64,000 nucleotides of DNA from Gammaproteobacteria bacterium. GTDB taxonomy: Bacteria > Pseudomonadota > Gammaproteobacteria > Steroidobacterales > Woeseiaceae. Within the stretch, counting starts at the first letter, position 1. Every line of letters begins with the position of its first letter. Position numbers and translations under genes: made by a program. Shown in pieces: positions 6,621 through 36,828 of this stretch. Where the stretch lies: NCBI GenBank assembly GCA_009937615.1, contig JAACFB010000003.1, positions 62,001 to 126,000 of the forward strand, in the 5' to 3' direction. The notes below the pieces were generated by a model that was not told where the DNA came from, made no database searches, and worked only from the letters and a program-made list of their open reading frames with translations.

Positions 6621-6636
6621 TGTCTCTTTCGTGACA
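6621..6636. promoter_or_regulatory. Crp-type dyad, site 1
   Basis: TGTCTCTTTCGTGACA, matching the recurring motif TGTCnC-N4-GnGACA. It lies 54 bp upstream of the small gene at 6691. A -10-like TAGACT at 6659-6664 ends 35.5 bp from the dyad centre, one base from the spacing seen at other copies in this window. I infer binding by the Crp-family protein encoded at 20303-21022. Confidence 0.55.
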
Positions 6637-6930: not shown

Positions 6931-7392
6931 ATGGTTACGACGGTTAGTAGAGCGGACATTGACAAATACATAGGCTACGAAGCTGAACCTACTGAGTGGC
7001 ACACGATTAAGCAGGAGCAGATAAACCAGTTTGCGGATTGCACCCTGGATCATCAGTACATTCACGTCGATCCCGAGAGGGCGAAACAGACGCCCTTCGG
7101 TACGACAATTGCGCACGGCTTTCTGAGCCTGTCCATGCTGTCCTACTTCGCCACCCAGTACAGCATCGTCATCGAGGGAATCACGATGGCCATCAATTCG
7201 GGTTTCGACAAGGTGCGTTTCCTGGCGCCCGTGAAGGTCGGCAGCCGCATTCGAGCCGTGGCAAAAGTTGCTGACATTGCGGAGACGAAACCCGGCCAGT
7301 TTCGCATCCAGACGGATGTAACCGTCGAAATCGAGGGTGAGGATACGCCCGCGCTTGTCGCCGAGTGGATCGGCGTGCAGATCGTCGCTTAG
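6931..7392 (+). CDS. MaoC-family (R)-specific enoyl-CoA hydratase
   Basis: 153 aa, a single hot-dog fold. The catalytic hydratase motif is clear: FADCTLDHQYIHVD at about residues 34-47 supplies the Asp/His pair, and FGTTIAHGFLSLS follows. Such enzymes (PhaJ, MaoC, NodN-like) add water to trans-2-enoyl-CoA to give the (R)-3-hydroxyacyl-CoA, which can feed PHA synthesis or a second round of oxidation through an (R)-specific SDR. A GAGGAAAG ribosome-binding site precedes the ATG. It lies between the small gene at 6691 and the dienoyl-CoA isomerase at 7579. Confidence 0.9.
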   Translation: MVTTVSRADIDKYIGYEAEPTEWHTIKQEQINQFADCTLDHQYIHVDPERAKQTPFGTTIAHGFLSLSMLSYFATQYSIVIEGITMAINSGFDKVRFLAPVKVGSRIRAVAKVADIAETKPGQFRIQTDVTVEIEGEDTPALVAEWIGVQIVA

Positions 7393-8427: not shown

Positions 8428-8957
8428 TTCGACAATACCCGGGGTTACTTGCATGTCCGCGTCCTGGAACGGGTATTTCCCGGCGGACGCTGCAGCGCAG
8501 GCTCAGAGAGCGCGGCAGCAGATTCCGGCAGGTATTGCAGGGTGTTAAAGCGAGCCTCGCGAGCAGGTATCGACGGGACGGCCGCCTGAGTGTTGTCCAG
8601 TTCGCGGCCCAGCCGGGCCGCAGCGATCACTCGACCTTTTCAGCCGGGTTCAGGTCCTGGATGGGTCAAGCGCCAATATTGAGTATCTAGAGAGGCACTG
8701 CTCCGTTTCACCTTCGCGGGCCGGGGCCCGGGTAAGGGGCCGGAAGCTGCTCACTGACCTGTTGTCAGCATTGGCCTGGGTAAGGCCCGCTCCGGTCCGT
8801 AGCCGAATACATGGGGCGCTTGAGCAGGGTCAGCCTGGTGTCGCCCATGCGACAGGTATTCTTCAGCGTAGTTGCTACGATTATCGCAGCATCGGGTTAT
8901 CCCGGGGGGTTCGTATGCCCGGGGCCCCGGATATCAAGCTCCCAAGGGGGAATCAGG
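8428..8957. other. 530-bp intergenic region upstream of TonB receptor
   Basis: No convincing gene was found on either strand; short open frames here lack coding character and ribosome-binding sites. It is GC-rich with several short palindromes, including CCGGGGCCCCGG near 8921. The right half carries the Crp-type dyad and the predicted promoter of the receptor gene. The left half, just after the isomerase gene, shows nothing that I can name. Confidence 0.5.
8839..8881 (+). promoter_or_regulatory. Crp-type dyad (site 2) with -10 box of the TonB receptor gene
   Basis: TGTCGCCCATGCGACA at 8839-8854 is the most symmetrical copy in the window, with perfect 6-bp arms TGTCGC/GCGACA. A -10-like TACGAT at 8876-8881 ends 34.5 bp from the dyad centre, putting the start of transcription near 8888 and the dyad at -41.5, the class II position for CRP-family activators. 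The leader would then be about 70 nt to the ATG at 8958. No good -35 box is seen, as expected when an activator replaces it. Confidence 0.65.
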
Positions 8958-11468
8958 ATGGACTTTTTACAACGTAGCCTGGCAATTGGCCTGGGTTTGG
9001 TGATGGGCCTCTCGGCCTTCGGCGTACAGGCTCAGGAACAAGAGCTCGTATTTGAAGAAATCATCGTTACGGCGCAGAAGCGCGAGCAGAGCCTGCAGGA
9101 CGTGCCGATTTCGGTTTCGGTCGTTAGTGGCGAGAAACTCACGGAAGCCGGCATTTTTACTCTTGATGACCTGGCGCTCTATGTACCGAATTTCAGCAAA
9201 GGTGAATCGGCAATTGGGCCGATCATCCAGATTCGCGGCATCGCAACGGGCGCGAACCCGGCGTTCGAGCAATCCGTCGTGCTGTACTCCGATGACGTGT
9301 CGCTGAGCCGCGCGCCGCTGGCTCGCATGCCGTTCATGGACCTGGAGCGCGTCGAGGTGTTGCGTGGGCCACAGAACGTGCTGTTCGGTAAGAACAGCAT
9401 CGGTGGCGCAATCTCGATGATCAGCGCCAAGCCGACCGAGGACTTCGAGGGCAGTTTTTCAGTGCGCTACGAACCGGATTATGAGGACAGTGAAGTCACG
9501 GGTGTGATTTCAGGTTCGCTAAACGATAGCGTACGTGCACGCCTTGCCGCGCGCTACGCCGATTTCGGTGGCTATTACGAGAACGAGGCCCTGGATAGAA
9601 ACGAGGAGCAGCGTGAAGAGACCGCGGTACGCTTAACGCTGGACTTTGACGTCGGCGACAACGCCGAGGCGAGTATCAAGTTCGAGCACGACACGGTCGA
9701 CAGTATTGGCGAAGGTAACGAACTCATTTTCGGCTACCCGAATCCAAACGAAACCATCAACTTCGAAGTGGCTCCGGGCATCATTGTCCCTGTCCCGAAT
9801 CCTTTCTTTGGGCTCGATTACACGCAGACAGTTGCTGCGCTGCAAGCCTCGTATAACTTCGGGTTGATCCCGCCGAACCCGTTTTTCCCGCCTCCCGTTG
9901 ACGTCGGCAGTGACACGATCAAGCAGGATCGGATCCGCCGCACGGCATACGACGGCTACCAGGACCTGGACATGACCAATGTCGTGTTGACGTACAACCA
10001 GGACTTCGACGATTTCATGTTTACATCGATTACCAGCTACGTTGATTACCAGGAAGATCGACTTGGCGGAGGCGGCCTGTCCGGCATCGATATCAGTAGC
10101 ATCCTGACCTACGAGGAATACCAGCAAATCAGCCAGGAAATCCGCTTTACGTCGGACACTGGCGGCAGGTTCGAGTGGATCGCCGGCGGGTTTTTCCAGA
10201 GCTGGGATCTCCAGGCTGACGAGAGCACGCTGCTCGACGACATGAACCTGCCGGTCCTGCTGGGCATCACCGGCGGGTTTGCGGGACTGGAGGCTGCGGC
10301 TTTCCTGGACAGCACCCGCTTCTTCACGAGCGATAGCACAACGTACGCCGGTTTCGGCCAGCTGACCTGGAACGCGTCAGACAGCACGCGCGTGATTCTC
10401 GGTGGGCGCTACACGCACGAGGAAAAGACCGCCCGGCGCGTGGTCGATATCGTCAACCAGCTGACCGGGGAGTTCGACGCAATCCAGGCACTCGTTGCGT
10501 CTTGCGGGTTTGGTGTTGATTACAATACGTTGGGATCAATAAATGCGTTTGTCCCGTTACCGAGCTGCGCAAATCTTACGGCGCCAGAGGATACTTGGGA
10601 ATTCGGCATCTACAATACCCACGACACGACCGGCCGGCGCAACGAGGACGCGTTTACGCCGTCTCTGACTTTTGAATTCGATCTGGGCGACAGCCACCTG
10701 TTGTATGCCTCGGCATCGACCGGGTTCAAGGCTGGCGGTTTCGACTCTCGTGCGCCGCGCGAAAAGGCGCTCCAGTACGAGGACGAGGAAGTACTCGGCT
10801 ACGAACTCGGGCTCAAGAGCTCGCTCGCCGGTGGCAGGGCGCAGACGAACATTGCCGTGTTCCACTCGGACTACGATGACCTGCAGGTCAGCACATTCGA
10901 CGGCAGGGCGGGCTTTGTCGTCGGCAACGCCGCCGAGTACAGGGCACAAGGCGTCGAGTTCGACGGCCGCTGGCGGGTTACGGACCACTTCACGTTGTCC
11001 GGCGCGATTGCCTTTATCGATTCGGAATTTACAGACTATGAGAACGCATCGTGTAACGAATACCTGCTGCTAACCGGGCAGGTGACGTTTCCCTGCAGTC
11101 GCACAGGTCTCCCCGCCAGCAACACACCGGAGTGGTCCGCGAACCTGATTGCCGATCTCGTGTTACCGCTGACAGGCAGCATGGATTTCCGGGCGACGCT
11201 GGACGTCATTTACGAGGACGAGTATTTCACGGAGTCAACCAAGGAAATCGGCACGCTCCAGGACGCCTATACGAAGTTCAATCTTCGCGTTGCGCTCGAA
11301 GGCGACAAGTGGACGCTTGCAGTGCTGGGTAAGAACCTCAGTGATGAAGAAGTTATCGAGTTCAGCGGCCCGATTGCCCTGTCGGGTGCGGAGTTGGGCG
11401 CGCCCACCTACTTTGGATTCCTGCAGCCCCCGCGCACGATCGCTGCGCAGTTCGAGTATCGCTTCTAG
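8958..11468 (+). CDS. TonB-dependent outer membrane receptor
   Basis: 836 aa from the ATG at 8958, preceded by AAGGGGG. A signal peptide ends around VQAQ (residue 25). The plug follows: FEEIIVTAQKREQSLQDVPISVSVV is the start typical of receptors in proteobacterial catabolic clusters, and ERVEVLRGPQNVLFGKNSIGGAISM is the conserved plug segment. The rest is a 22-strand barrel ending in the BAM-type C-terminal phenylalanine (FEYRF). Receptors of this subgroup often sit in clusters for hydrophobic or complex organic substrates, so uptake of the island substrate across the outer membrane is likely. A rho-independent terminator follows directly. Confidence 0.93.
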   Translation: MDFLQRSLAIGLGLVMGLSAFGVQAQEQELVFEEIIVTAQKREQSLQDVPISVSVVSGEKLTEAGIFTLDDLALYVPNFSKGESAIGPIIQIRGIATGANPAFEQSVVLYSDDVSLSRAPLARMPFMDLERVEVLRGPQNVLFGKNSIGGAISMISAKPTEDFEGSFSVRYEPDYEDSEVTGVISGSLNDSVRARLAARYADFGGYYENEALDRNEEQREETAVRLTLDFDVGDNAEASIKFEHDTVDSIGEGNELIFGYPNPNETINFEVAPGIIVPVPNPFFGLDYTQTVAALQASYNFGLIPPNPFFPPPVDVGSDTIKQDRIRRTAYDGYQDLDMTNVVLTYNQDFDDFMFTSITSYVDYQEDRLGGGGLSGIDISSILTYEEYQQISQEIRFTSDTGGRFEWIAGGFFQSWDLQADESTLLDDMNLPVLLGITGGFAGLEAAAFLDSTRFFTSDSTTYAGFGQLTWNASDSTRVILGGRYTHEEKTARRVVDIVNQLTGEFDAIQALVASCGFGVDYNTLGSINAFVPLPSCANLTAPEDTWEFGIYNTHDTTGRRNEDAFTPSLTFEFDLGDSHLLYASASTGFKAGGFDSRAPREKALQYEDEEVLGYELGLKSSLAGGRAQTNIAVFHSDYDDLQVSTFDGRAGFVVGNAAEYRAQGVEFDGRWRVTDHFTLSGAIAFIDSEFTDYENASCNEYLLLTGQVTFPCSRTGLPASNTPEWSANLIADLVLPLTGSMDFRATLDVIYEDEYFTESTKEIGTLQDAYTKFNLRVALEGDKWTLAVLGKNLSDEEVIEFSGPIALSGAELGAPTYFGFLQPPRTIAAQFEYRF

Positions 11469-14641: not shown

Positions 14642-16075
14642 TCAGGCACTTAGTTTTGCTGGCTCGTCTTCGGCATAAGCCGCTTTTAGCTCATCGAACG
14701 ATTCGCGCAGGTACGTCGCGTAGGTCGCCGGGTCCGGAATCATGTCGCGGCAGCAGGTAATGCTGATGGTCAGCCGTCCAGCGTAACTCGTTACAGCATG
14801 GAACAGCCCATTGCCATCGGCGCTCAGGCCGAGTCCGAACGAATTGAGCAACTTCGCTCCGTTGCTGTAGATCGGCGTAGGCGATCCCGGGACGTTGGTA
14901 ATGACCGTATTGAAGACCGGCTGTACGTGATTGGCCAGGCCTTGCTCCGCCGCAACGCGCGCGCCGAGGGCGGCGAGCTGCGTCGGCATGAAGTTGGCCA
15001 TCTCGACCATGGTTTTTGCGCCGATCGCGTGGGTGAGCGCCTTGGCATTGCGTGTTTCGGTAATGATTGCCGCCAGTCGTCCGGCCGCATCGGCGACGTT
15101 GGTGTGCAGAGGCACGGCCATGGCCGTGACTTCGTTGCCGCCTCTGGCCGTGGCGTTCGGATCGCGGACGCTGATCGGGCACATGCTGACGAGGCTGCGC
15201 CGGGGAAGTTCGTCGTTAGCCTCGAGATAGCGGCGCAAGGCGCCCGCGCAGATTGCGAGCACGACGTCGTTGACGGTGCCGCCGGCCTCGTTCTTGACGG
15301 CGCGGATCTCGTCGAGCGAGTAATCCACGCCTTCGAAAACGCGGTGCGCCGATACCGTGCCGTTGAACCGTGTCCGGGGGACCGGCCGCTGGATGTCGAG
15401 CGCACGATCAGCCAGCGCCTGCAGACTGCCGCTCCAGCCGGCGAGCGCTTTCTGCATGAATTCCATGTAGCGCAGCGGCTTGAGTGCGTTGTTTTGAAAA
15501 GCCAGGATCGCCAGTTCCGCTGCAGTCGGCACCGGGTCGGGCTGCCACTCTTCGGATCCCGGAACATCGCGAATTTCGGGCGTCGGGTCGCAAAGCGCGG
15601 TACCGATATCTGCAACAGATTTACCGTCGATCGCCGCGTGGTGAGTTTTTGTCAGCGTTGCGAAAGAGCCCCGCGGAAAGCCTTTTACGTTGTCCAGGCC
15701 CTCTATTACATATAGCTCCCAGAGTGGCCTGGACCGGTCAAGCGGCCGCGCATACAGGCGCGCAACCTGGATACACAGCTGCCGCCAGTCGCCCGGCTTG
15801 GGCAGCGCGATGTGGCGAATATGGAATTCCGGATCGAACGAATGGTCGCGTACCCAGTATGGGAAGTCTGCGTTGAACGGCACTTCGAACACCCGTTCCC
15901 TGAGATACGGAGCCAGGTGGGCGCGATCCTGCATCGTCTGGATGACGCGCTTGAAGCGGACAATGCCGCCCGGTGCCGTGGACGGGTCAAAAATGGATAA
16001 CGTGCCGACGTGCATCGGCTGCGCCGGTGTCTCCTGGAACAGGAACAGTGAATCAATGCCGCTTAGTTGTCGCAT
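14642..16075 (-). CDS. wax ester synthase / diacylglycerol acyltransferase (WS/DGAT) 1
   Basis: 477 aa, the usual length for the family. The catalytic HHxxxDG motif is HHAAIDG at residues 145-151; the second conserved segment, NDVVLAICAGALRRYL, is in the C-terminal half, followed by PLHTN and NVPGSP. The enzyme esterifies fatty alcohols or diacylglycerol with acyl-CoA to make storage wax or triacylglycerol at the inner membrane. It lies 76 bp downstream of a phasin gene on the same strand. A close paralogue with the same motif numbering is encoded at 33887-35425, also next to a phasin. Confidence 0.93.
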   Translation of the reverse strand: MRQLSGIDSLFLFQETPAQPMHVGTLSIFDPSTAPGGIVRFKRVIQTMQDRAHLAPYLRERVFEVPFNADFPYWVRDHSFDPEFHIRHIALPKPGDWRQLCIQVARLYARPLDRSRPLWELYVIEGLDNVKGFPRGSFATLTKTHHAAIDGKSVADIGTALCDPTPEIRDVPGSEEWQPDPVPTAAELAILAFQNNALKPLRYMEFMQKALAGWSGSLQALADRALDIQRPVPRTRFNGTVSAHRVFEGVDYSLDEIRAVKNEAGGTVNDVVLAICAGALRRYLEANDELPRRSLVSMCPISVRDPNATARGGNEVTAMAVPLHTNVADAAGRLAAIITETRNAKALTHAIGAKTMVEMANFMPTQLAALGARVAAEQGLANHVQPVFNTVITNVPGSPTPIYSNGAKLLNSFGLGLSADGNGLFHAVTSYAGRLTISITCCRDMIPDPATYATYLRESFDELKAAYAEDEPAKLSA

Positions 16076-16151
16076 GACCCGGGCTTCCTCGATTGCGAAT
16101 CCCGGGCAGCTAAACAGCTACCCGGGATCTGCGGTTCCTGCCGACGTTAAT

Positions 16152-16523
16152 CTAGGCTGCTTTTTCTTTCTTTTTTGGAGCAGCAGTGTCGGCAGCTTTG
16201 TCACCGGAAGCCGGCGCGTAGATCGTCTTGAGCTCGCTCTGCAGCACTTCCCATGACTTCTTGTTTTCTTCATAAAGGTTCTGCAACGCGCTGCGGACGG
16301 TTTCTTCATAGGCGACGTTGGCTTCGAATGCTTCGTTAAACGTCTTGGATTCGCTGATCTTCTTGAGGCTCTCGACGCGAGAATCGGTCAGCGCTGCGAA
16401 AGAGGCCACGTTGCGTTTTACGAGGTCGTCGAAATACTTGCTCTGGGCGACCCAGGCAGACGTGTTGCTCTTGATTGCTGATTCCAACAAATCCTTGATC
16501 TTGTCCGGTGTCATGTCGTTCAT
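16152..16523 (-). CDS. phasin family protein 1
   Basis: 123 aa. A helical, amphipathic protein with no membrane span: DLLESAIKSNTSAWVAQSKYFDDLVKRN, then ESKTFNEAFEANVAYEETVRSALQNLYEENKKSWEVL, and a short Ala/Lys-rich tail. Phasins coat PHA or lipid granules. It resembles the phasin at 35546-36061 in the core (RTFNQAFEAN versus KTFNEAFEAN) but lacks that protein's long repeat tail. The gene heads an operon with WS/DGAT 1. Its predicted promoter has a Crp-type dyad at -41.5. Confidence 0.85.
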   Translation of the reverse strand: MNDMTPDKIKDLLESAIKSNTSAWVAQSKYFDDLVKRNVASFAALTDSRVESLKKISESKTFNEAFEANVAYEETVRSALQNLYEENKKSWEVLQSELKTIYAPASGDKAADTAAPKKKEKAA

Positions 16524-16565
16524 TTGAGTAGCTCCTGATTGATGACTTAGTAACGACTGGACACC

Positions 16566-16608
16566 AATTTACGCATTGGAAGTGGGCCTGTCTGTCACTC
16601 GGGAGACA
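16566..16608 (-). promoter_or_regulatory. Crp-type dyad (site 3) with phasin 1 promoter
   Basis: TGTCACTCGGGAGACA at 16593-16608. Reading leftward, TAAATT (16571 to 16566) ends 34.5 bp from the dyad centre, so the dyad would be at -41.5 of the phasin 1 transcript. It lies 69 bp before the phasin ATG. Confidence 0.65.
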
Positions 16609-16614
16609 GGCACT

Positions 16615-16657
16615 TGTCGCGGAGGAGACAGCTATCGATAGCCTGCCGGCATAGTAT
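16615..16657 (+). promoter_or_regulatory. Crp-type dyad (site 4) with rightward promoter
   Basis: TGTCGCGGAGGAGACA at 16615-16630, centred exactly 22 bp (two helical turns) from site 3. Reading rightward, TAGTAT at 16652-16657 ends 34.5 bp from its centre, again the -41.5 layout. It would drive the monooxygenase remnant, hydrolase and SDR genes that start at 16694. Confidence 0.65.
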
Positions 16658-16693
16658 CTGTGCCATCCGATATCCCCGGCCCGACCCTGAATA

Positions 16694-16863
16694 ATGACCC
16701 AAACCGCACATAGCGAAACGGTCGCTGCGGCTGCGCAAGCCGATACCAAAAAAGTACTCGATGTACTGGTGATCGGCACGGGCTTCGCGGGCGTCTGCTG
16801 GCCAAAACCAGGTGGAGCGATTTCGAGGTCTCGGAGCCTGTCCGAATGGACAGGGCCGCCTGA
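16694..16863 (+). pseudogene. flavin-containing monooxygenase remnant, internal deletion
   Basis: The first 35 or so codons read as the start of a Baeyer-Villiger or other flavin monooxygenase: a short leader, then VLDVLVIGTGFAG, the FAD-binding motif. The open frame then becomes meaningless. From 16801 a different frame reads AKTRWSDFEVSEPVRMDRAA and stops at 16861-16863, which looks like the natural C-terminus of such an enzyme, 9 bp before the next start codon. The normal length is about 500 aa, so roughly 1.3 kb appears to be missing between the two ends, with a frame change. A perfect 7-bp stem lies inside the tail at 16837-16854. The promoter in front still looks intact. Confidence 0.6.
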
Positions 16864-16872
16864 GGTTCCCGC

Positions 16873-17805
16873 ATGCCTGCAATAACCGCCAACGGGATTG
16901 AAATCGCGTACGAGGAATTCGGCGACGCGAAGAATCCCGTGATGCTACTCGTGCAGGGCCTCGGCATGCCGCTCGCGGCATGGCCGCCGATGCTGATCGA
17001 ATCGCTCGTGGCCGAGGGATTTCGCGTCATCGCAATGGACAATCGCGACATTGGTTGCTCGCAGCTGCTCAGTGAGCTAAAAGTGCCCAACATGCTTGTG
17101 CAGACGCTGCGCCGGAAAATCGGGATGAAGGTGAAAGCGCCTTACCGGCTCACCGACATGATGCGCGACGTTGTTGGCCTGTTGGATGCTCTCGATATTA
17201 AATCCGCGCACGTTGTCGGCGTGTCGATGGGCGGCATGATCTCGCAGATACTGGCACTGCGCGAGCCGGATCGTGTCACGAGCCTCACGTCCATCATGTC
17301 GACGACCAACGACCGCAAGCTGCCCGGTCCCACCAGGGCGGTTACCAGGCACATCGTGCGTGGCCCGAAGGCCCCGACCGCCGAGGCGAGGCTCGACTAT
17401 CACCGGCAACTGTGGCGCCTGCTCGGTAGTCCCGGCTACCCGCTCCCCGAGAAGGAGCTCGAGCGATTCCTGCAGCGGATATTTGCGCGCGGCATGACGG
17501 CGGCGGGCACGATGCGTCAAACGCTGGCTATTTTCGCCGCGGCGAGCCGGGCGACCTCGCTCAGGAAACTCGACATTCCGACGCTTGTCATACACGGCGA
17601 CGCCGATCCGCTGATCCCGATCGAATGCGGAATTGCAACAGCGAAGGCAATACCCGGGGCAAGAATGACGACGATTGCCGGCATGGGTCACGACCTGCCC
17701 GAAGCGCTGGTTCCGCGGCTCACGCGGCTGATTGCCCAGCACGCGAAGGCCGTCGATTCGGCCGGCGATCAGCAGGTTCGCCCGGCGAGCCCGAGCGAAG
17801 CATGA
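16873..17805 (+). CDS. alpha/beta hydrolase (esterase-like)
   Basis: 310 aa. Full catalytic triad context is visible: nucleophile Ser118 in GVSMGGM, Asp in HGDADPLIPIE and His in GMGHDLPEAL. The HG-like oxyanion segment is VQGLGMPLAAW. No signal peptide. It starts 9 bp after the stop of the monooxygenase remnant and overlaps the SDR start by 4 bp. Monooxygenase, hydrolase and SDR together form the usual set for opening a cyclic ketone to a lactone and then to a hydroxy acid, so an ester or lactone hydrolase role is likely. A paralogue of similar length with the same Ser position is at 43825-44730. Confidence 0.85.
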   Translation: MPAITANGIEIAYEEFGDAKNPVMLLVQGLGMPLAAWPPMLIESLVAEGFRVIAMDNRDIGCSQLLSELKVPNMLVQTLRRKIGMKVKAPYRLTDMMRDVVGLLDALDIKSAHVVGVSMGGMISQILALREPDRVTSLTSIMSTTNDRKLPGPTRAVTRHIVRGPKAPTAEARLDYHRQLWRLLGSPGYPLPEKELERFLQRIFARGMTAAGTMRQTLAIFAAASRATSLRKLDIPTLVIHGDADPLIPIECGIATAKAIPGARMTTIAGMGHDLPEALVPRLTRLIAQHAKAVDSAGDQQVRPASPSEA

Positions 17806-18650
17806 AGATACGGCCAGGGAAAGTCGCCGCAATAACCGGTGCCGGGTCCGGGATCGGGCGCGCGCTTGCCGTCAAGTTGGCCGGGCGCGGCTGCAACCTC
17901 GCACTGGCGGACGTTAATGCGGACGGGCTTGAGGAAACGAAGGCGCTCGCAGTCGCGGCAGGTGTGGCATGCAGCACGCACGTCGTCGACGTCGCAGACC
18001 GCGCGGCAGTCGATGCCTTCGCGGAGGCCGTGCTTCGCGAGCATGGTGCCGTTCATCTCGTCATAAACAATGCCGGGGTGACGCTGGTCGAGCGTGTGGA
18101 GCAGCTCACCAGCAAAGACTTCGAATGGATCATGAATATCAACTTCTGGGGCGTTGTTCACGGCACCAAGGCGTTTCTGCCGTACCTGGTCAAGGCTGAT
18201 GAAGGGCACATCGTCAATGTCTCGAGCCTGTTCGGGCTCGTGGCCGTGCCGCTGCAGTCGGCCTACAACGCCTCCAAGTTCGCCGTCAGGGGTTTTACCG
18301 AGGCGCTGAAGATCGAGCTCGCGGCCACTTCCATTGGCGTGAGCTGCGTCCATCCGGGCGGTATCAAAACGAGCATTGGCGCAAACTCGCGTGTTGGCGA
18401 AGATGCAATCTCGATTAACAAAGAAGAACTCGTTGCCGAATTCGAGAGAGCCGCGCGCACGTCTCCCGAACAGGCGGCCGCCGTGATCATCCGCGGGATC
18501 GAGAAGAACAAGCGGCGCGTGCTGATCGGGCTTGACGCGAAAATCGTCGACTTCATTGCGCGACTGTTTCCCGCGAGCTACGAAAAGATACTGGGTATGG
18601 AGAAGAGGGTCCGTCTCCGGGCCGGGGAGCGCGCCGCATCAAAAGAATAG
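17802..18650 (+). CDS. SDR family oxidoreductase
   Basis: 282 aa from an ATG overlapping the hydrolase stop (ATGA). Classical SDR motifs: TGAGSGIG near residue 12, NNAG, Ser in NVSSLFGLV and YNASK. The C-terminal 50 residues extend beyond a minimal SDR (IEKNKRRVLIGLDAKIVDFIARLFP), a tail seen in acyl-CoA or steroid-like SDRs of proteobacteria. It probably oxidises or reduces the alcohol/ketone of the island substrate together with the hydrolase. Acidic residue D in ADVNADG favours NAD. Confidence 0.87.
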   Translation: MKIRPGKVAAITGAGSGIGRALAVKLAGRGCNLALADVNADGLEETKALAVAAGVACSTHVVDVADRAAVDAFAEAVLREHGAVHLVINNAGVTLVERVEQLTSKDFEWIMNINFWGVVHGTKAFLPYLVKADEGHIVNVSSLFGLVAVPLQSAYNASKFAVRGFTEALKIELAATSIGVSCVHPGGIKTSIGANSRVGEDAISINKEELVAEFERAARTSPEQAAAVIIRGIEKNKRRVLIGLDAKIVDFIARLFPASYEKILGMEKRVRLRAGERAASKE

Positions 18651-20254: not shown

Positions 20255-20297
20255 ACAGTACATGGACAGGATTCAGGAGGCTGTCTCCTGCGCGACT
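20255..20297 (-). promoter_or_regulatory. Crp-type dyad (site 5) with symporter promoter
   Basis: TGTCTCCTGCGCGACT at 20282-20297 differs from the consensus only in the last base. Reading leftward, TACTGT (20260 to 20255) ends 34.5 bp from the dyad centre, the -41.5 layout again. It sits between the regulator gene's stop and the symporter's start. Confidence 0.55.
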
Positions 20298-20302
20298 CAG
20301 GC

Positions 20303-21022
20303 TCAGTCGTCAGTGTCCTTCAGCTCGAGCTCTTTCTGCAGCGCCTCGACATCGCGGATCAGGTAGCGGTTCGACTCGAGCTCGAGAATACCCTGATCGC
20401 GCCATTCGCCCAGAATCTTGTTAATTCGCTGACGTGAACCGAGGCTGAGCTGGGCGAAGTCGTTCTGACTCAAGTGGACGTCGAGATAAACGCCCTCGTC
20501 GCTTTCCTGGCCATGCTTTTCAATGAGTTCGATGAACCAGCCGGCGAGCCGTGAGCGGAGCGGATAAAACGCCATGCCCTGTAACAACACCAGGACGCCT
20601 GCCAGTCGCGCCATCGTGTCGGAAAAAAGCCGCCGATACATCTTCGGATGCTCCCTGCCGACGTCCATGACCGTGGCCCTGGGTATCACGAGCACCGTCG
20701 CATTCTCGTTGACCTGCACGTCAAGCCCTGACGGATTGTCGCCGGCCAGGAACTCCCCGCCCAGCCATGCTTCCGGCTCGAAGTCGCTGATCGCATATTC
20801 TTGACCGATAGCGCTCGTCAGCAGCATTCGAACCCGTCCTTCCAGGATGCAATAGATCTCGGTGCTTTTTTCACCCGTCGTGTACAGGTAGCTGTTCTTC
20901 CGATACGAACGAATGCGGGCGGATTCGGCGAGACGCTCGTGCGCCTGCCCCGGAAGTTTCCTGAACCAGGGCGAACGCGATACGACCCCGACGATGTCAT
21001 GGTCTTTGATGTCAGCACTCAT
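20303..21022 (-). CDS. Crp/Fnr-family transcriptional regulator
   Basis: 239 aa. The N-terminal cyclic-nucleotide-type beta roll spans about residues 15-115 (GEKSTEIYCILEGRVRML), the long dimer helix about 125-170, and the HTH about 184-205 with recognition helix SRQRINKIL. Only one cysteine is present, so no FNR-type iron-sulfur cluster. The phosphate-binding Arg-Ser/Thr pair of cAMP receptors is not seen after GGEFLAGDN, so the effector may not be cAMP. It is the only Crp-family gene here and a TGTCnC-N4-GnGACA dyad lies 73 bp before its start. I infer it binds that dyad at all nine positions and controls the catabolic island, perhaps also itself. Confidence 0.88.
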   Translation of the reverse strand: MSADIKDHDIVGVVSRSPWFRKLPGQAHERLAESARIRSYRKNSYLYTTGEKSTEIYCILEGRVRMLLTSAIGQEYAISDFEPEAWLGGEFLAGDNPSGLDVQVNENATVLVIPRATVMDVGREHPKMYRRLFSDTMARLAGVLVLLQGMAFYPLRSRLAGWFIELIEKHGQESDEGVYLDVHLSQNDFAQLSLGSRQRINKILGEWRDQGILELESNRYLIRDVEALQKELELKDTDD

Positions 21023-21094: not shown

Positions 21095-21137
21095 TGTCGC
21101 TCGCGTGACAGAATAAGCGGGTCAACTGCTGCAAGAT
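21095..21137. promoter_or_regulatory. Crp-type dyad (site 6) between regulator and CoA ligase genes
   Basis: TGTCGCTCGCGTGACA at 21095-21110. Reading rightward, CAAGAT at 21132-21137 ends 34.5 bp from the centre, which would start transcription near 21144 and rule out the ATG at 21136 as start of the ligase. Reading leftward no good -10 box is found, so autoregulation of the crp-type gene is possible but less clear. Confidence 0.6.
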
Positions 21138-33107: not shown

Positions 33108-33890
33108 TTAAGCTGCACCTGCAGCAAAACCGAAGTAGCGGCCGATGTTAAACGGCTGCCACTGATTTCTGCGCTGCGACAGGCGATCGGCAATCACGAA
33201 GAGCGACTGCGCATTGACGCCCATGCCCGTGTGGCTGCCCAGCACTTCGATATTCTCAACCTGGTCGTGGCCAGCGTGTTGTATGCAGGCGCGCCAATGA
33301 CATACGCCATCGAACCTGCTGTAAATCGACGTCGTCGGAACCGGAGGCGCGGCACTGATTTCCCAATGCTCCTTCAGGAACTGCTCCGGCTTCGTCGCAT
33401 GTTCCGGGTTGAACATTTTGTACAGCTTGGTCACCTTGGAGGCGTCGCCGTCCGGGTCGTTAAACGGGCTGCCGAGCGTAATGACCTGGCGTACCGCGTC
33501 TGGCAGATGTTTCGCCAATTCGCGCGCGTAAATGCCGCCGAGGCTCTGTCCGACGATACTGATCCTGCAATCGTACTCCGCGTGCAGTCCCTGCAGCAGT
33601 TCCCCGACACCTTCGAACAGTTCGCGTCGCGCGCCGAAGTTCACGCCCTGTTTCCAGCCGCAGGGCAGATAACCGAGCCTCGAAAGAAAATGCCGCAGCA
33701 ACGCCGTCGACCGGTCGCCTGCGGTAAAGCCCGGTATCACGAGAACCGGATGACCATCACCGCCCTTCAATGAGTTCAGCCACGGCTCGGACAAATGCAG
33801 CGTTGCGAGCTCGAAAATTGCGCGAAAAGGCTCGGTCAAATACAGCGTTTCACTCGGCGGCCGGAACTTCTCTCTCAGAATGTAGCTCAT
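33108..33890 (-). CDS. alpha/beta hydrolase, lipase-like
   Basis: 260 aa. The lipase order is visible: oxyanion segment VLVIPGFTAGD, nucleophile Ser116 in GQSLGGIYAREL, Asp in YSRFDGVCHWR and His in GSHTGMGVN. No signal peptide, so a cytoplasmic enzyme. The start overlaps the WS/DGAT 2 stop by 4 bp (ATGA). Being coupled to a wax/triacylglycerol synthase and a phasin, it probably hydrolyses or remodels the stored lipid, which is inference. Its 3' end is followed by the dyad for the ACAD operon. Confidence 0.85.
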   Translation of the reverse strand: MSYILREKFRPPSETLYLTEPFRAIFELATLHLSEPWLNSLKGGDGHPVLVIPGFTAGDRSTALLRHFLSRLGYLPCGWKQGVNFGARRELFEGVGELLQGLHAEYDCRISIVGQSLGGIYARELAKHLPDAVRQVITLGSPFNDPDGDASKVTKLYKMFNPEHATKPEQFLKEHWEISAAPPVPTTSIYSRFDGVCHWRACIQHAGHDQVENIEVLGSHTGMGVNAQSLFVIADRLSQRRNQWQPFNIGRYFGFAAGAA

Positions 33891-35425
33891 GTCGTTCCTC
33901 TGGCAACGGACCGTTTGCCGCCTGTTTTACCGACAGGTTTTTTGCGCGGCCCCGCTTTAGGCTGGTGCGCGGCCTTCCTGGCTCCGCGTTTCGATGTGGC
34001 TTTCGCCGGCGCCGCTTTCTTTCGCGAAGCAACTTCAAGCTCCGCGAACGATTCCTCGAGAAGTTCAGCGTAGTGTGCCGGGTCGGGCATCATGACACGG
34101 CAGCAGGTCACGCCGATATTCAATTCTCCGCAATAGCTTCCGACCGCGTGGAACAGACCGTTGCCGTCGGCGCAGGGGCCGAGACCCCAGCCGCGAATAT
34201 GCTTGGCGCCGTTGCTGTAAAACGGTACCGGGCTGCCGGGTACATTCGTAATCACGGTGTTGAAACTCGGTGTAACGAAGTTGGCCAAACCCTGTTCCGC
34301 AGCAACCCGTGATCCGAGTATCCCGAGTTCCATTGGAATGAAATCCGCCATCGCCATCATTGACTTGGCACCGATGGCGTTGGTGTACTCCTTCGCCTCC
34401 CGGGTCGACGCGCATATCGCCTGCAGGCGCTCCCGTGGATCGGCAATATCGGTGTGCAGTGGCACAGACATGGACACAACCTGATTACCGCCAACCGCGG
34501 CTACGCTTGGGTCGCGGACGTTGATCGGGCACATGCTTACAAGGCTGATGTCCGGAAGTTCGTCTTTCTCCAGCAAATACTTGCGTAACGCGCCTGCACA
34601 GATCGCGAGTACGGCGTCATTGACCGTGCCGCCTGCGTCGTTTTTGATCTGTTTGATCTTTTCCAGCGGGAACGTAACGCCCTCGAAAACCCGGTGTGGT
34701 GATACGGTCCCGTTGAAGCGCGTACGCGGCACGCTCGGCGGCAGGGTCAGGGCGCCGCTGATCGCCGCTTCAATCGCCTTGGTCCAGGTGGGAACCGATT
34801 CTTGCAGGAACTCGAGATAGCGCAGTGGCCGTGTGACGCTGTGCTCGATTGCCATGGCCGTTAACTCGAACGCCGATGGCACGCTGTCAGCCTGCCACTG
34901 TTCCGCGCCTTCGATCTGGCGAACTTCAGGCGTCGGGTCGCAGAGGGCGGTGGCGATGGCCTGGCTTGACGCACCGTCGATTGCTGCATGATGTATCTTC
35001 GCAAACAGCGCAAAACACCCCGGCGGAATGCCTGCTACATTATCGAGTCCCTCGATGACGTAAAGCTCCCAAAGTGGCCGTGCACGATCCAGCGTACGCG
35101 CATGCAGCCGGGCAATCTGAATACACAATTGCCTCCAGTCGCCGGGCTTGGGCAAGGCGACGTGGCGAATGTGAAACTCCGGGTCGAACGACTCGTCCCG
35201 GACCCAATAGGGGAAGTCGGCATTGAACGGGACCTCGACAAGCCGTTGTCTGAGATAGGGCGCAACGTGGGCCCGTTCCATCACCGTCTGGATAATGCGC
35301 TTGAAACGAACGCTGCCACCGGGGGCGGTTGACGGGTCGAAAATGCCAACCGAGGCAATATGCATGGGTGCATTCGGTGTTTCCATGAACAGGAATGCAG
35401 CATCAAGTCCGCTTGTTTGTTGCAT
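33887..35425 (-). CDS. wax ester synthase / diacylglycerol acyltransferase (WS/DGAT) 2
   Basis: 512 aa from the ATG at 35425; an open upstream extension is not conserved in the paralogue. HHAAIDG again falls at residues 145-151, and NDAVLAICAGALRKYL and NVPGSPVPFY are in the C-half. The first 450 residues align closely with WS/DGAT 1 (for example DPSTAPGG, EVPFNADFPYWVRD, LPKPGDWRQL in both). The last 45 residues are a Lys/Ala/Pro-rich tail absent from the other copy, similar in style to the tail of the adjacent phasin, which might tether both to DNA or a granule. It is 120 bp downstream of phasin 2 and overlaps the lipase. Confidence 0.93.
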   Translation of the reverse strand: MQQTSGLDAAFLFMETPNAPMHIASVGIFDPSTAPGGSVRFKRIIQTVMERAHVAPYLRQRLVEVPFNADFPYWVRDESFDPEFHIRHVALPKPGDWRQLCIQIARLHARTLDRARPLWELYVIEGLDNVAGIPPGCFALFAKIHHAAIDGASSQAIATALCDPTPEVRQIEGAEQWQADSVPSAFELTAMAIEHSVTRPLRYLEFLQESVPTWTKAIEAAISGALTLPPSVPRTRFNGTVSPHRVFEGVTFPLEKIKQIKNDAGGTVNDAVLAICAGALRKYLLEKDELPDISLVSMCPINVRDPSVAAVGGNQVVSMSVPLHTDIADPRERLQAICASTREAKEYTNAIGAKSMMAMADFIPMELGILGSRVAAEQGLANFVTPSFNTVITNVPGSPVPFYSNGAKHIRGWGLGPCADGNGLFHAVGSYCGELNIGVTCCRVMMPDPAHYAELLEESFAELEVASRKKAAPAKATSKRGARKAAHQPKAGPRKKPVGKTGGKRSVARGTT

Positions 35426-35545
35426 ATCTCGCCCGCGTCCACCAACCAAATCAGTATAAAAAGCGCATATCGGGCGCCTGGTCAAGGCCGCTATGCGCTG
35501 CTGACAGGCCGCCGTGGCGCCAGGCCTGTCAGCCCGTGTGCAAAC

Positions 35546-36061
35546 TCAGGCGGCTTTCTTGGCCTCCGGAGCCGTTTTGGCTTTCGCGGTCTTCCTGGCC
35601 GGCGGTTTGGCTTTTGCGGTTTTCCTGGCCGGCGCTTTGGCTTTCGCGGTCTTCCTGGCCGGCGCTTTGGCTTTCGCGGTCTTCCTGGCCGGCGGTTTCG
35701 CCTTCGCGGTCTTCTTGACCGGCGGTTTCGCCGTCGGTGCTGCGCTGGCCGGCGTGTATATTGCCTTCAGATTCTCGACCAGGGACTCCCATGACCGGGT
35801 GTTGTCTTCCTGCAAAGCAACGAGTTCCTCACGGACCTTCTCTTCAAAAGCCAGGTTGGCTTCAAAAGCCTGATTGAACGTGCGCGACTCGCGCATTTCC
35901 TTGAAGCTCTCTATACGAGCATCCGCCAGCTCGGTCCACGCCTTGGTATTGCGCCGGAGCAGGCCTTCGTAATATTCGGCCTGAGCCTTCCAGGCGTCGC
36001 CGTAGGCGGCTGCTGCCTGCCCGACGAATTTCCGGATGTTTTCGGATGTTACCTGTGCCAT
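35546..36061 (-). CDS. phasin family protein 2 with Lys/Ala/Pro repeat tail
   Basis: 171 aa. The first 100 residues are a phasin core (NTKAWTELADARIESFKEMRESRTFNQAFEAN...), without membrane spans. Residues about 110-160 are five 10-residue repeats of the type KAPARKTAKA, strongly basic, like the histone H1-like tail of PhaF in Pseudomonas. PhaF binds granules with its core and DNA with its tail to spread granules at cell division; the same is likely here. The tail is much longer than that of phasin 1. The promoter lies in an AT-rich region together with a PhaR-type dyad. Confidence 0.88.
   Translation of the reverse strand: MAQVTSENIRKFVGQAAAAYGDAWKAQAEYYEGLLRRNTKAWTELADARIESFKEMRESRTFNQAFEANLAFEEKVREELVALQEDNTRSWESLVENLKAIYTPASAAPTAKPPVKKTAKAKPPARKTAKAKAPARKTAKAKAPARKTAKAKPPARKTAKAKTAPEAKKAA
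35581..35730 (-). repeat. five 30-bp tandem repeats in the phasin 2 tail
   Basis: Units start at 35581, 35611, 35641, 35671 and 35701 and share the core CTTCCTGGCCGGCG with a few changes. Each encodes a decapeptide of the KxPARKTAKA type. Such coding repeats can vary in number by slippage. Confidence 0.9.
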
Positions 36062-36103
36062 TGTCTCCTCTCCTGTTTTTTGCGGTGCAAAATATCTATA
36101 ATC

Positions 36104-36131
36104 AATCTATCAGATAATCTTCCAATGTCAA
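36104..36131 (-). promoter_or_regulatory. sigma-70-type promoter of phasin 2
   Basis: Reading leftward, TTGACA (36131 to 36126) and TAGATT (36109 to 36104) are separated by 16 bp. Transcription would start near 36097, about 36 nt before the phasin 2 ATG. Confidence 0.6.
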
Positions 36132-36137
36132 GGTTTT

Positions 36138-36167
36138 TTTGCAATCGCAAATTATTGTTTATATAAT
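36138..36167 (+). promoter_or_regulatory. PhaR-type operator overlapping the phaR promoter
   Basis: The dyad TTTGC-AATC-GCAAA at 36138-36151 has the TGC-N4-GCA layout reported for PhaR of Paracoccus and relatives. It overlaps the -35 box TTGCAA (36139-36144) of a rightward promoter whose -10 is TATAAT (36162-36167, 17-bp spacing), and lies 6 bp upstream of the phasin 2 -35. One operator could thus repress phaR and adjust phasin 2. A second TGCAGTGCA element is at 36207-36215. Confidence 0.6.
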
Positions 36168-36279
36168 AAATACAGGTAGATAAGTATAAATACATAGAGA
36201 GTTTTATGCAGTGCACTTATTTTTTGCCAGGCACGCGGCCGGCCGCCGGCCCGGGGCCTGAACGACCGGGAGGGTCGCC

Positions 36280-36789
36280 ATGAGGTTGCTCAAGAAATAC
36301 CCGAACCGACGCATCTACGACGCCGAAACCAGCAGCTTCGTGTCCTTGCCGGAAATTCGCAAGATGATCATCGACCGGCAATCGATACGCGTCGTGCACT
36401 CGAAAACCGGCAAAGACCTCACGCGCAGCGTGCTGCTCCAGATCATTACCGAGATGGAGACCGAGGGTCACGAATCCCTGCTCACGAACCGGATTCTCGA
36501 GGAGCTGATCCGCTTTTACGGCGACAAGATCGTGGCGATGATCGGGCCGTACATCGAGCAGCAGATTCTGCAGTCGCTTGCGGCCCAGGACCGGATGCGG
36601 GATCAGCTGACGAAAGTGTTTACCCAGCCGTATCCCACCCCGGACCAGGCGATCAGGCAAATGCTGGAGCAGTACCAGAAGCTGACGGGGCAGCATGTCC
36701 CCGGCGCCGGTCAGAATGAAAATGATGTGCCGGCCGCTGAAAACCCGGATGACGCGCCGGAGCAGAAGGAGCCGCCGAAAGACGCCTGA
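36280..36789 (+). CDS. phaR: polyhydroxyalkanoate synthesis repressor
   Basis: 169 aa. The first half is the PHA-accumulation regulator DNA-binding domain: LKKYPNRRIYDAETSSFVSLPEIRKMI, nearly the family consensus, then SVLLQIITEMETEGHESLLTNRILEELIRFYG. The C-terminal half (QYQKLTGQHVPGAG...) is variable in the family. PhaR senses free PHA polymer and, when granules are absent, represses phasin genes and its own. Here it is divergent from phasin 2 with a matching dyad between them. No PHA synthase gene is in the window; storage enzymes nearby are WS/DGATs, so PhaR may here answer to lipid droplets or to a distant phaC. Confidence 0.93.
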   Translation: MRLLKKYPNRRIYDAETSSFVSLPEIRKMIIDRQSIRVVHSKTGKDLTRSVLLQIITEMETEGHESLLTNRILEELIRFYGDKIVAMIGPYIEQQILQSLAAQDRMRDQLTKVFTQPYPTPDQAIRQMLEQYQKLTGQHVPGAGQNENDVPAAENPDDAPEQKEPPKDA

Positions 36790-36812
36790 GCTTCCTTGCC
36801 GCAGTCGATCGA

Positions 36813-36828
36813 TGTCGCGCGAGTGACA
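36813..36828. promoter_or_regulatory. Crp-type dyad, site 8
   Basis: TGTCGCGCGAGTGACA, exact match to TGTCnC-N4-GnGACA, 79 bp upstream of the acyl-CoA dehydrogenase operon that starts at 36908. The hexamer at the standard distance (36850-36855) is CAAGGT, a weak -10 box. Confidence 0.55.

Follow-up and report, generated by a model that had tools for sequence, protein, structure and literature searches.

A likely bidirectional operator for a local Crp/Fnr-family regulator between storage-granule and lipid degradation genes

Two perfect palindromes stand back to back in the space from which a phasin gene and a lipid degradation gene set leave in opposite directions. The question that this locus raises is whether one regulator serves both directions and, if so, whether the two palindromes act as separate activator sites or as one unit. 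The window, i.e., the whole stretch of 64,000 nucleotides that was analyzed, was considered together with genomes of the same genus, family, and order.

Two abutting palindromes and their conservation

Site 3 (TGTCACTCGGGAGACA, positions 16593-16608, centre 16600.5) and site 4 (TGTCGCGGAGGAGACA, positions 16615-16630, centre 16622.5) are both perfect TGTC-N8-GACA dyads with centres 22 bp apart, just as a preliminary description of this DNA had stated. A -10-like hexamer, TAAATT, is located at 16566-16571 on the minus strand, and another, TAGTAT, at 16652-16657 on the plus strand; each matches TATAAT at four of six positions and lies exactly 29.5 bp outside the centre of the nearer dyad. With the -10 hexamers set to -12 to -7, transcription starts are predicted from the sequence at 16559 (leftward, phasin) and 16664 (rightward), 105 bp apart. 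Site 3 would thereby become a putative operator at -41.5 of the phasin promoter and at -63.5 of the rightward promoter, and site 4 a putative operator at -41.5 of the rightward and at -63.5 of the leftward promoter. The placement at -41.5 on both sides, also part of the preliminary description, is borne out, and the hexamers are kept in the relatives G195 and G305 and, on the phasin side, also in G012. Judged by sequence only, the locus thus shows the class II arrangement of a dyad centred at -41.5 with a -10 hexamer at fixed distance. At the -35 place of the rightward promoter there is no useful hexamer (CAGCTA), and a generic sigma-70 scan of 16400-16900, which requires a -35 hexamer, returned no promoter.

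The pair is not a product of chance. Six exact single dyads are present in the window versus a mean of 0.81 in shuffled sequences, with six or more in none of 100 shuffles, and the paired pattern, with up to two mismatches allowed, was found a single time in the window and never in 100 shuffles. One-mismatch dyads (24 in the window, giving 30 with the six exact ones versus a shuffle mean of 22.3) were left aside because their number is near background; among 15 that were inspected, only the one at 20282 has YANNNT at 29.5 (TACTGT, leftward).

Exact pairs are found in the genome of the window (G000) and in three relatives of the same genus (G012, G195, and G305), while G008, also of this genus, has a pair with one mismatch. 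All 16 core columns are invariant among the four exact genomes, versus 19 of 88 flank columns; with G008 added, the numbers are 15 of 16 and 11 of 88. Flank identity among these four is 0.35 to 0.43 (0.35 for G000 and G195), excepting G195 and G305 with 0.88, and 0.27 to 0.40 in comparisons with G008. Since G195 and G305 are close relatives, the four exact pairs represent about three independent lineages. The 22-bp spacing is free of indels in all five genomes, though most flank columns differ. Of 107 genomes of the family, eight contain exact pairs whose spacer measures 0 to 30 bp, versus two for the reversed control pattern; a spacer of 6 (centres 22 bp apart) is found in four of the eight, in each case at this locus, and spacers of 19, 20, 24, and 26 in the others. 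In a sample of 296 order genomes, the exact 22-bp pair is present in G000, G012, and G195 and a one-mismatch pair in G005 and G013, with the reversed control pattern with one mismatch in 4 of the 296.

In G195 and G305, the pair lies between the hydrolase and phasin genes, with TAGTAT on the hydrolase side and TAGATT on the phasin side, both at 29.5. In G012, it precedes the phasin gene and both dyads are exact, with TAGATT on the phasin side and TTGTAT on the other side, from which no gene leaves. In G008, the pair is located before a monooxygenase gene with no phasin gene adjoining; site 4 is exact, the phasin-side dyad has one mismatch, TAGATT stands at the phasin-side offset, and the -10 hexamer of the monooxygenase side (TANNNT) is 1 bp off. 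In G217, the stretch L070:12381-12450 comprises a single dyad flanked at 29.5 by two -10-like hexamers, TAGTAT toward the hydrolase gene and TAATTT in the opposite direction. No exact dyad precedes the hydrolase gene of G272, and the contig of G184 ends before this locus. By this comparison, both palindromes and the predicted promoter on each side are conserved.

Genes on the storage side and the degradation side

The leftward side begins with a gene for a phasin of 123 amino acids (16152-16523, minus strand; Pfam Phasin_2, E 5.8e-06), for which a leader of 36 nt is predicted in the window and of 36 to 37 nt across the window, G012, G195, and G305. The gene of a wax ester synthase/diacylglycerol acyltransferase (WS/DGAT) follows 76 bp downstream (14642-16075, minus strand; assigned by Pfam and by TIGR02946, 430 bits versus a cut-off of 310). 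Phasins at least 55% identical to that of G195 are encoded in the same four of 73 genomes, each beside the pair; the G195 phasin is 55% identical to the window phasin over 107 residues and has no Pfam match, and a 45% match in G201 was left unplaced in this count. A 14-bp hairpin without a T run is found between the phasin and WS/DGAT genes (16098-16129, minus strand); its 80-nt stretch has a z value of -2.55, 1 of 200 shuffles being as good, and it may control the proportion in which the two proteins are made.

On the rightward side, the preliminary description had placed a monooxygenase at the head of the transcript, a reading that needs correction: what is left is an ORF of 63 codons (16694-16885, plus strand) with an N-terminal GTGFAG motif, most of the gene being absent. 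By its N-terminal nucleotide-binding motif, this remnant is of the flavin-binding (Baeyer-Villiger) type; the Pfam scan of the ORF gave no match of its own, and a short stretch in another frame of the region may be the monooxygenase C terminus. An intact counterpart stands at the same place in G008 (L052:17237-18739, FMO-like, 500 amino acids). Searching with it in eight genomes including G008 gave elsewhere only matches of up to 42% identity, and hence no intact orthologue in the other seven assemblies; the gap in the window may be a real loss or an assembly gap. The first intact rightward gene is consequently that of an alpha/beta hydrolase (16873-17805, plus strand; Pfam Abhydrolase_1), 70% identical to the hydrolase beside the pair in G195, and it is followed by a short-chain dehydrogenase (SDR) gene (17802-18650, plus strand; Pfam adh_short). 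The division into a storage side (phasin and WS/DGAT) and a degradation side (hydrolase and SDR) is sound in that the named families are all found.

Reach of the motif and its candidate reader

Hexamers were counted at offsets of 12.5 to 59.5 from the dyad centre for 22 exact sites (44 orientations) from eight sources, i.e., the window and seven loci picked because of the regulator or the phasin; sites that correspond to each other between genomes are not independent in these counts. TANNNT stands at 29.5 in 10 of the 44 orientations and 0 to 3 times at each other offset, except for 51.5 with 6, because these are the hexamers at 29.5 of the partner dyad. YANNNT is present at 29.5 in 16 of the 44, with loci L110-L113 left out. 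When these loci are added, TANNNT reaches 12 of 54 (mean of the other offsets, 0.46) and YANNNT 21 of 54 (other offsets, mean 1.31, largest 5); as L110-L113 were chosen by a dyad with YANNNT at 29.5, their share of the 54-orientation count is circular. Sites without YANNNT at 29.5 include that at 6621 in the window, those at 681 and 15056 in L050, 2258 in L051, 18774 in L052, and 14805 in L071. Sequence and comparison together establish both dyads, their 22-bp spacing, the -10 hexamers at fixed distance, and the conservation of these features.

Among the further exact dyads of the window, that at 21095-21110 lies between the regulator gene described below and an acyl-CoA synthetase gene, with CAAGAT at 29.5 on the synthetase side (CATAAT at the equivalent in G008, L052:13216). 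The dyad at 8839-8854 precedes the likely start (8958) of a TonB-dependent receptor gene, with TACGAT at 29.5 and equivalents in G012 (L050:14904) and G217 (L070:16514), and that at 36813-36828 precedes an acyl-CoA dehydrogenase gene, with a weak CAAGGT at 29.5 and equivalents with CATAGT in G012, G184, and G217. The dyad at 6621-6636, between an HpaB-type gene and the ORF 6931-7392, has no -10 hexamer at 29.5. Note that gene calls for dyad placement were codon-usage ORF picks with the longest ORF taken, a rule that puts the dyad at 8839 inside the TonB receptor ORF; the start at 8958 was read from the signal peptide. With this start, all six window dyads lie between genes; by the strict rule, five of six do (one-sided Fisher test, 0.0009). 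The whole genome contains 47 exact dyads, 6 in the window and 41 outside, compared with 31 copies of the reversed control pattern. A genome-wide regulon was rejected, since 36 of the 41 outside dyads are inside predicted genes and the 5 between genes all lack TANNNT at 29.5. The motif seems to operate inside this island of 30 kb, as part of a local regulon. As a separate observation, a second storage block (33887-36828) comprises a WS/DGAT-like ORF (judged from its position and the start of its sequence), a further phasin-like protein, PhaR, and the dyad before the acyl-CoA dehydrogenase gene. In G245, three near-identical copies of a 43-base stretch resembling a dyad with a -10 hexamer occur on contigs C34, C37, and C121, perhaps as a repeat element.

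The proposed reader of the dyads is a Crp/Fnr-family regulator encoded at 20303-21022 on the minus strand; the dyad at 21095 adjoins it, in the space before its own gene. The protein features a cNMP-binding-type domain followed by a Crp-type helix-turn-helix (Pfam cNMP_binding, 2.4e-12; HTH_Crp_2, 7.8e-12) with the recognition helix S-R-Q-R-I-N-K. Its best PDB matches are Clr, GlxR, and MtCrp by profile and GlxR and MtCrp by fold, and its structure model (pLDDT 77) agrees with these in the Crp fold only, the domain arrangement fitting poorly (TM approximately 0.4 to 0.5, rmsd approximately 10). Ten NCBIfam models match the regulator, the best with 39.7 bits versus a cut-off of 300, and the CRP model gives 32.9 bits versus a cut-off of 266. 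In Crp, an Arg-Ser pair in the phosphate-binding cassette binds cAMP. At positions 98 and 99, which align to Arg-Ser of Clr, the seven orthologues have SG, AR, TA, AR, TA, TM, and KM, and assignment as a cAMP-responsive Crp was rejected for this reason; cAMP is an unlikely effector, as Arg-Ser is not conserved in the orthologues.

Orthologues of the regulator are present in 6 of 73 genus genomes, its own included (E 1e-40), and in 12 of 296 order genomes (E 1e-25), and all three exact pairs of the 296-genome sample fall in genomes with an orthologue. Genomes with an orthologue (n = 6) contain on average 4.0 dyads with YANNNT at 29.5, and those without (n = 67) contain 0.91 (Mann-Whitney, 0.0002); the reversed control with YANNNT occurs 7 times in the six orthologue genomes. 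The helix S-R-Q-R-x-N-K (x = I or V) is invariant in the seven orthologues, while GlxR and Mycobacterium tuberculosis Crp have S-R-E-T-V-N-K, and six more distant homologues (in G063, G098, G165, G210, G141, and G216) all have R-Q at the same place. At the loci of these homologues, 60 kb in total, all six exact dyads lie within approximately 450 bp of the regulator gene, at four of six loci; from the dyad density in the genome of the window, approximately 0.8 dyads would be expected in 60 kb. Specifically, G210 and G216 have dyads 72 and 104 bp ahead of the match start, G098 and G141 have dyad pairs approximately 300 to 430 bp beyond the match end, and the G063 and G165 loci have no exact dyad. 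Dyad pairs of the form TGTC-N8-GACA, with 38 bp between the two dyads in L073 (5853 and 5891) and 40 bp in L076 (4931 and 4971), lie near more distant Crp/Fnr genes with the same R-Q helix, which suggests a TGTC half-site common to a wider Crp/Fnr group.

CooA has Gln at the Q/E position of the helix; searches with single helix parts gave no CooA alignments. Base contacts of E. coli CRP are made by Arg180, Glu181, and Arg185 (PMC12531629), and in CprK and FNR the matching Q/E position determines the recognized base (PMC2610375). By co-occurrence, nearness, and helix residues, the reader of the dyads is most likely the regulator encoded at 20303-21022.

Mode of action and comparison with known systems

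Our preferred explanation, which we consider likely, is a bidirectional operator in which two abutting sites bind a local Crp/Fnr-family activator, each dimer acting in the class II manner on its own promoter. We infer that the regulator would bind both dyads, that its binding would activate, and that both promoters would fire jointly. A dimer at -41.5 of each promoter would permit class II activation, with phasin and WS/DGAT as leftward output and hydrolase and SDR as rightward output, so that one local regulator probably controls both a storage-granule and a degradation gene. The same signal would switch on both sides. The idea of one switch for storage and degradation, put forward in the preliminary description, therefore fits as co-activation only; nothing in the sequence makes the two sides exclusive. 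The fixed distance between dyad and -10 hexamer at many promoters is in accordance with class II activation; a repressor would tolerate other positions.

RNA polymerase has a footprint reaching approximately -55, and the alpha CTD docks in the region of about -63.5. With 105 bp between the starts, the two polymerases would overlap by approximately 6 bp; given this distance and the 22-bp offset, they would nearly fit, and both sides could be on. Each dimer would also occupy -63.5 of the opposite promoter, near the expected docking place of the alpha CTD. At a single shared dyad such as that of G217, with 83 bp between starts, two class II polymerases would overlap by approximately 28 bp and exclude each other. 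A duplication of dyad and spacer could give rise to the 22-bp step, leaving the starts 105 bp apart. It is a speculative thought, and a rather doubtful one, that the pair converts a bidirectional promoter of the either-or kind into one that can be on in both directions, its two sides being coupled by each other's dimers.

A reading compatible with the preferred one, which we regard as possible but do not favour, is that the dimers bind cooperatively as one unit, each dyad serving the far promoter from -63.5. The preliminary description had set both dimers on the same DNA face: 22 bp is indeed close to two turns, yet at 10.5 bp per turn it amounts to 2.1 turns and leaves the dimers approximately 34 degrees off. 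The indel-free spacing in five genomes agrees with cooperative binding; the leader length of 36 to 37 nt, however, varies hardly more, and there no phasing is required. Both dyads are still exact in G012, whose hydrolase side has no gene and TTGTAT as -10 hexamer, but this loss could be recent, and G008, without a phasin gene beside the pair, has its mismatch in the phasin-side dyad. Moreover, the promoters of the acyl-CoA synthetase, the acyl-CoA dehydrogenase, and the TonB receptor each have just one dyad, likewise at 29.5, and the single dyad of G217 apparently serves both directions; two dimers thus do not look necessary for activation. The far dimer may help or hinder the other promoter: the spacing and the intact G012 dyad would favour some help, the single-dyad promoters and the damaged G008 dyad independence of the dimers.

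It is unlikely that the regulator is a repressor, its dimers blocking both promoters over the -35 regions until an inducer releases them. Some Crp-type proteins do act negatively, and each dyad spans -49 to -34 of its own promoter. On the phasin side, CAGACA (four of six matches to TTGACA) lies 17 bp from the -10 hexamer in G000, G012, G195, and G305, and binding at this place might thus be repressing instead of activating. The rightward CAGCTA, in contrast, would be useless as a -35 hexamer, and the fixed 29.5-bp distance is what a class II activator needs. We think it decidedly improbable that another Crp/Fnr-type protein reads the dyads. At E 1e-40, no orthologue was detected in G305 (62% complete) despite its pair or in G211 (94% complete) and G270 (73%) despite a dyad with CATAGT; against this stand the low completeness of G305, the evidence given above for the regulator encoded at 20303-21022, and the dyads beside its distant homologues. 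That the palindromes arose by chance or form a structural element unrelated to transcription has next to no probability, for although TGTC-N8-GACA is short and its copies outside the window lie mostly in genes, the shuffles, the conserved spacing, and the conserved -10 position speak against it.

Retaining two class II sites for a local activator as the preferred explanation, the locus can be compared with known systems. In CRP/FNR class II promoters of the E. coli type, the dyad is centred at -41.5 and the half-sites are TGTGA or TTGAT. The promoters described here share the 16-bp dyad at -41.5, the fixed -10 distance and, rightward, the lack of a good -35 hexamer, but differ in the TGTC half-site and in that two promoters stand back to back with abutting dyads. 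For the CooA regulon of Rhodospirillum and Desulfovibrio, the published consensus is TGTCGGCNNGCCGACA, with TGTC half-sites (PMC545781). The TGTC half-site, the 16-bp dyad, and the geometry resemble those of CooA, which is also among the matched solved structures of the regulator; the inner bases differ, and whereas CooA senses CO and has CO oxidation targets, the genes scanned here are for lipid, storage, and transport functions. No CO oxidation genes were found among the scanned genes beside dyads, part of the window's genes having been scanned. The MrpC motif of Myxococcus xanthus, TGTYN8RAC (PMC4320627), covers these dyads, but MrpC has hundreds of putative targets, whereas the motif here appears to act in a single island. 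ThnR of tetralin degradation is likewise a catabolic regulator, and its divergent promoters are transcribed co-operatively (PMC6563040); it is a LysR-type protein, unlike the Crp/Fnr regulator here. E. coli fucPIK/fucAO are divergent catabolic operons with paired Crp sites (PMC11011485), but have four Crp sites plus FucR and other factors rather than two abutting class II sites.

Altogether, the dyads outline a candidate regulon of a Crp/Fnr group outside the coverage of the NCBIfam models, in which granule proteins and a set of lipid-degrading genes would be linked through a single local regulator. Searches of the open-access literature brought up no report of divergent promoters with two class II Crp-type sites at a distance of 22 bp; E. 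coli malX-malI may come close to this arrangement. The relatives of the window's genome provide a ready-made series, comprising the pair with both genes, with one dead promoter, or with one damaged dyad, as well as a single shared dyad, and this series allows a direct test of the question if class II activators at abutting sites assist or impede one another.
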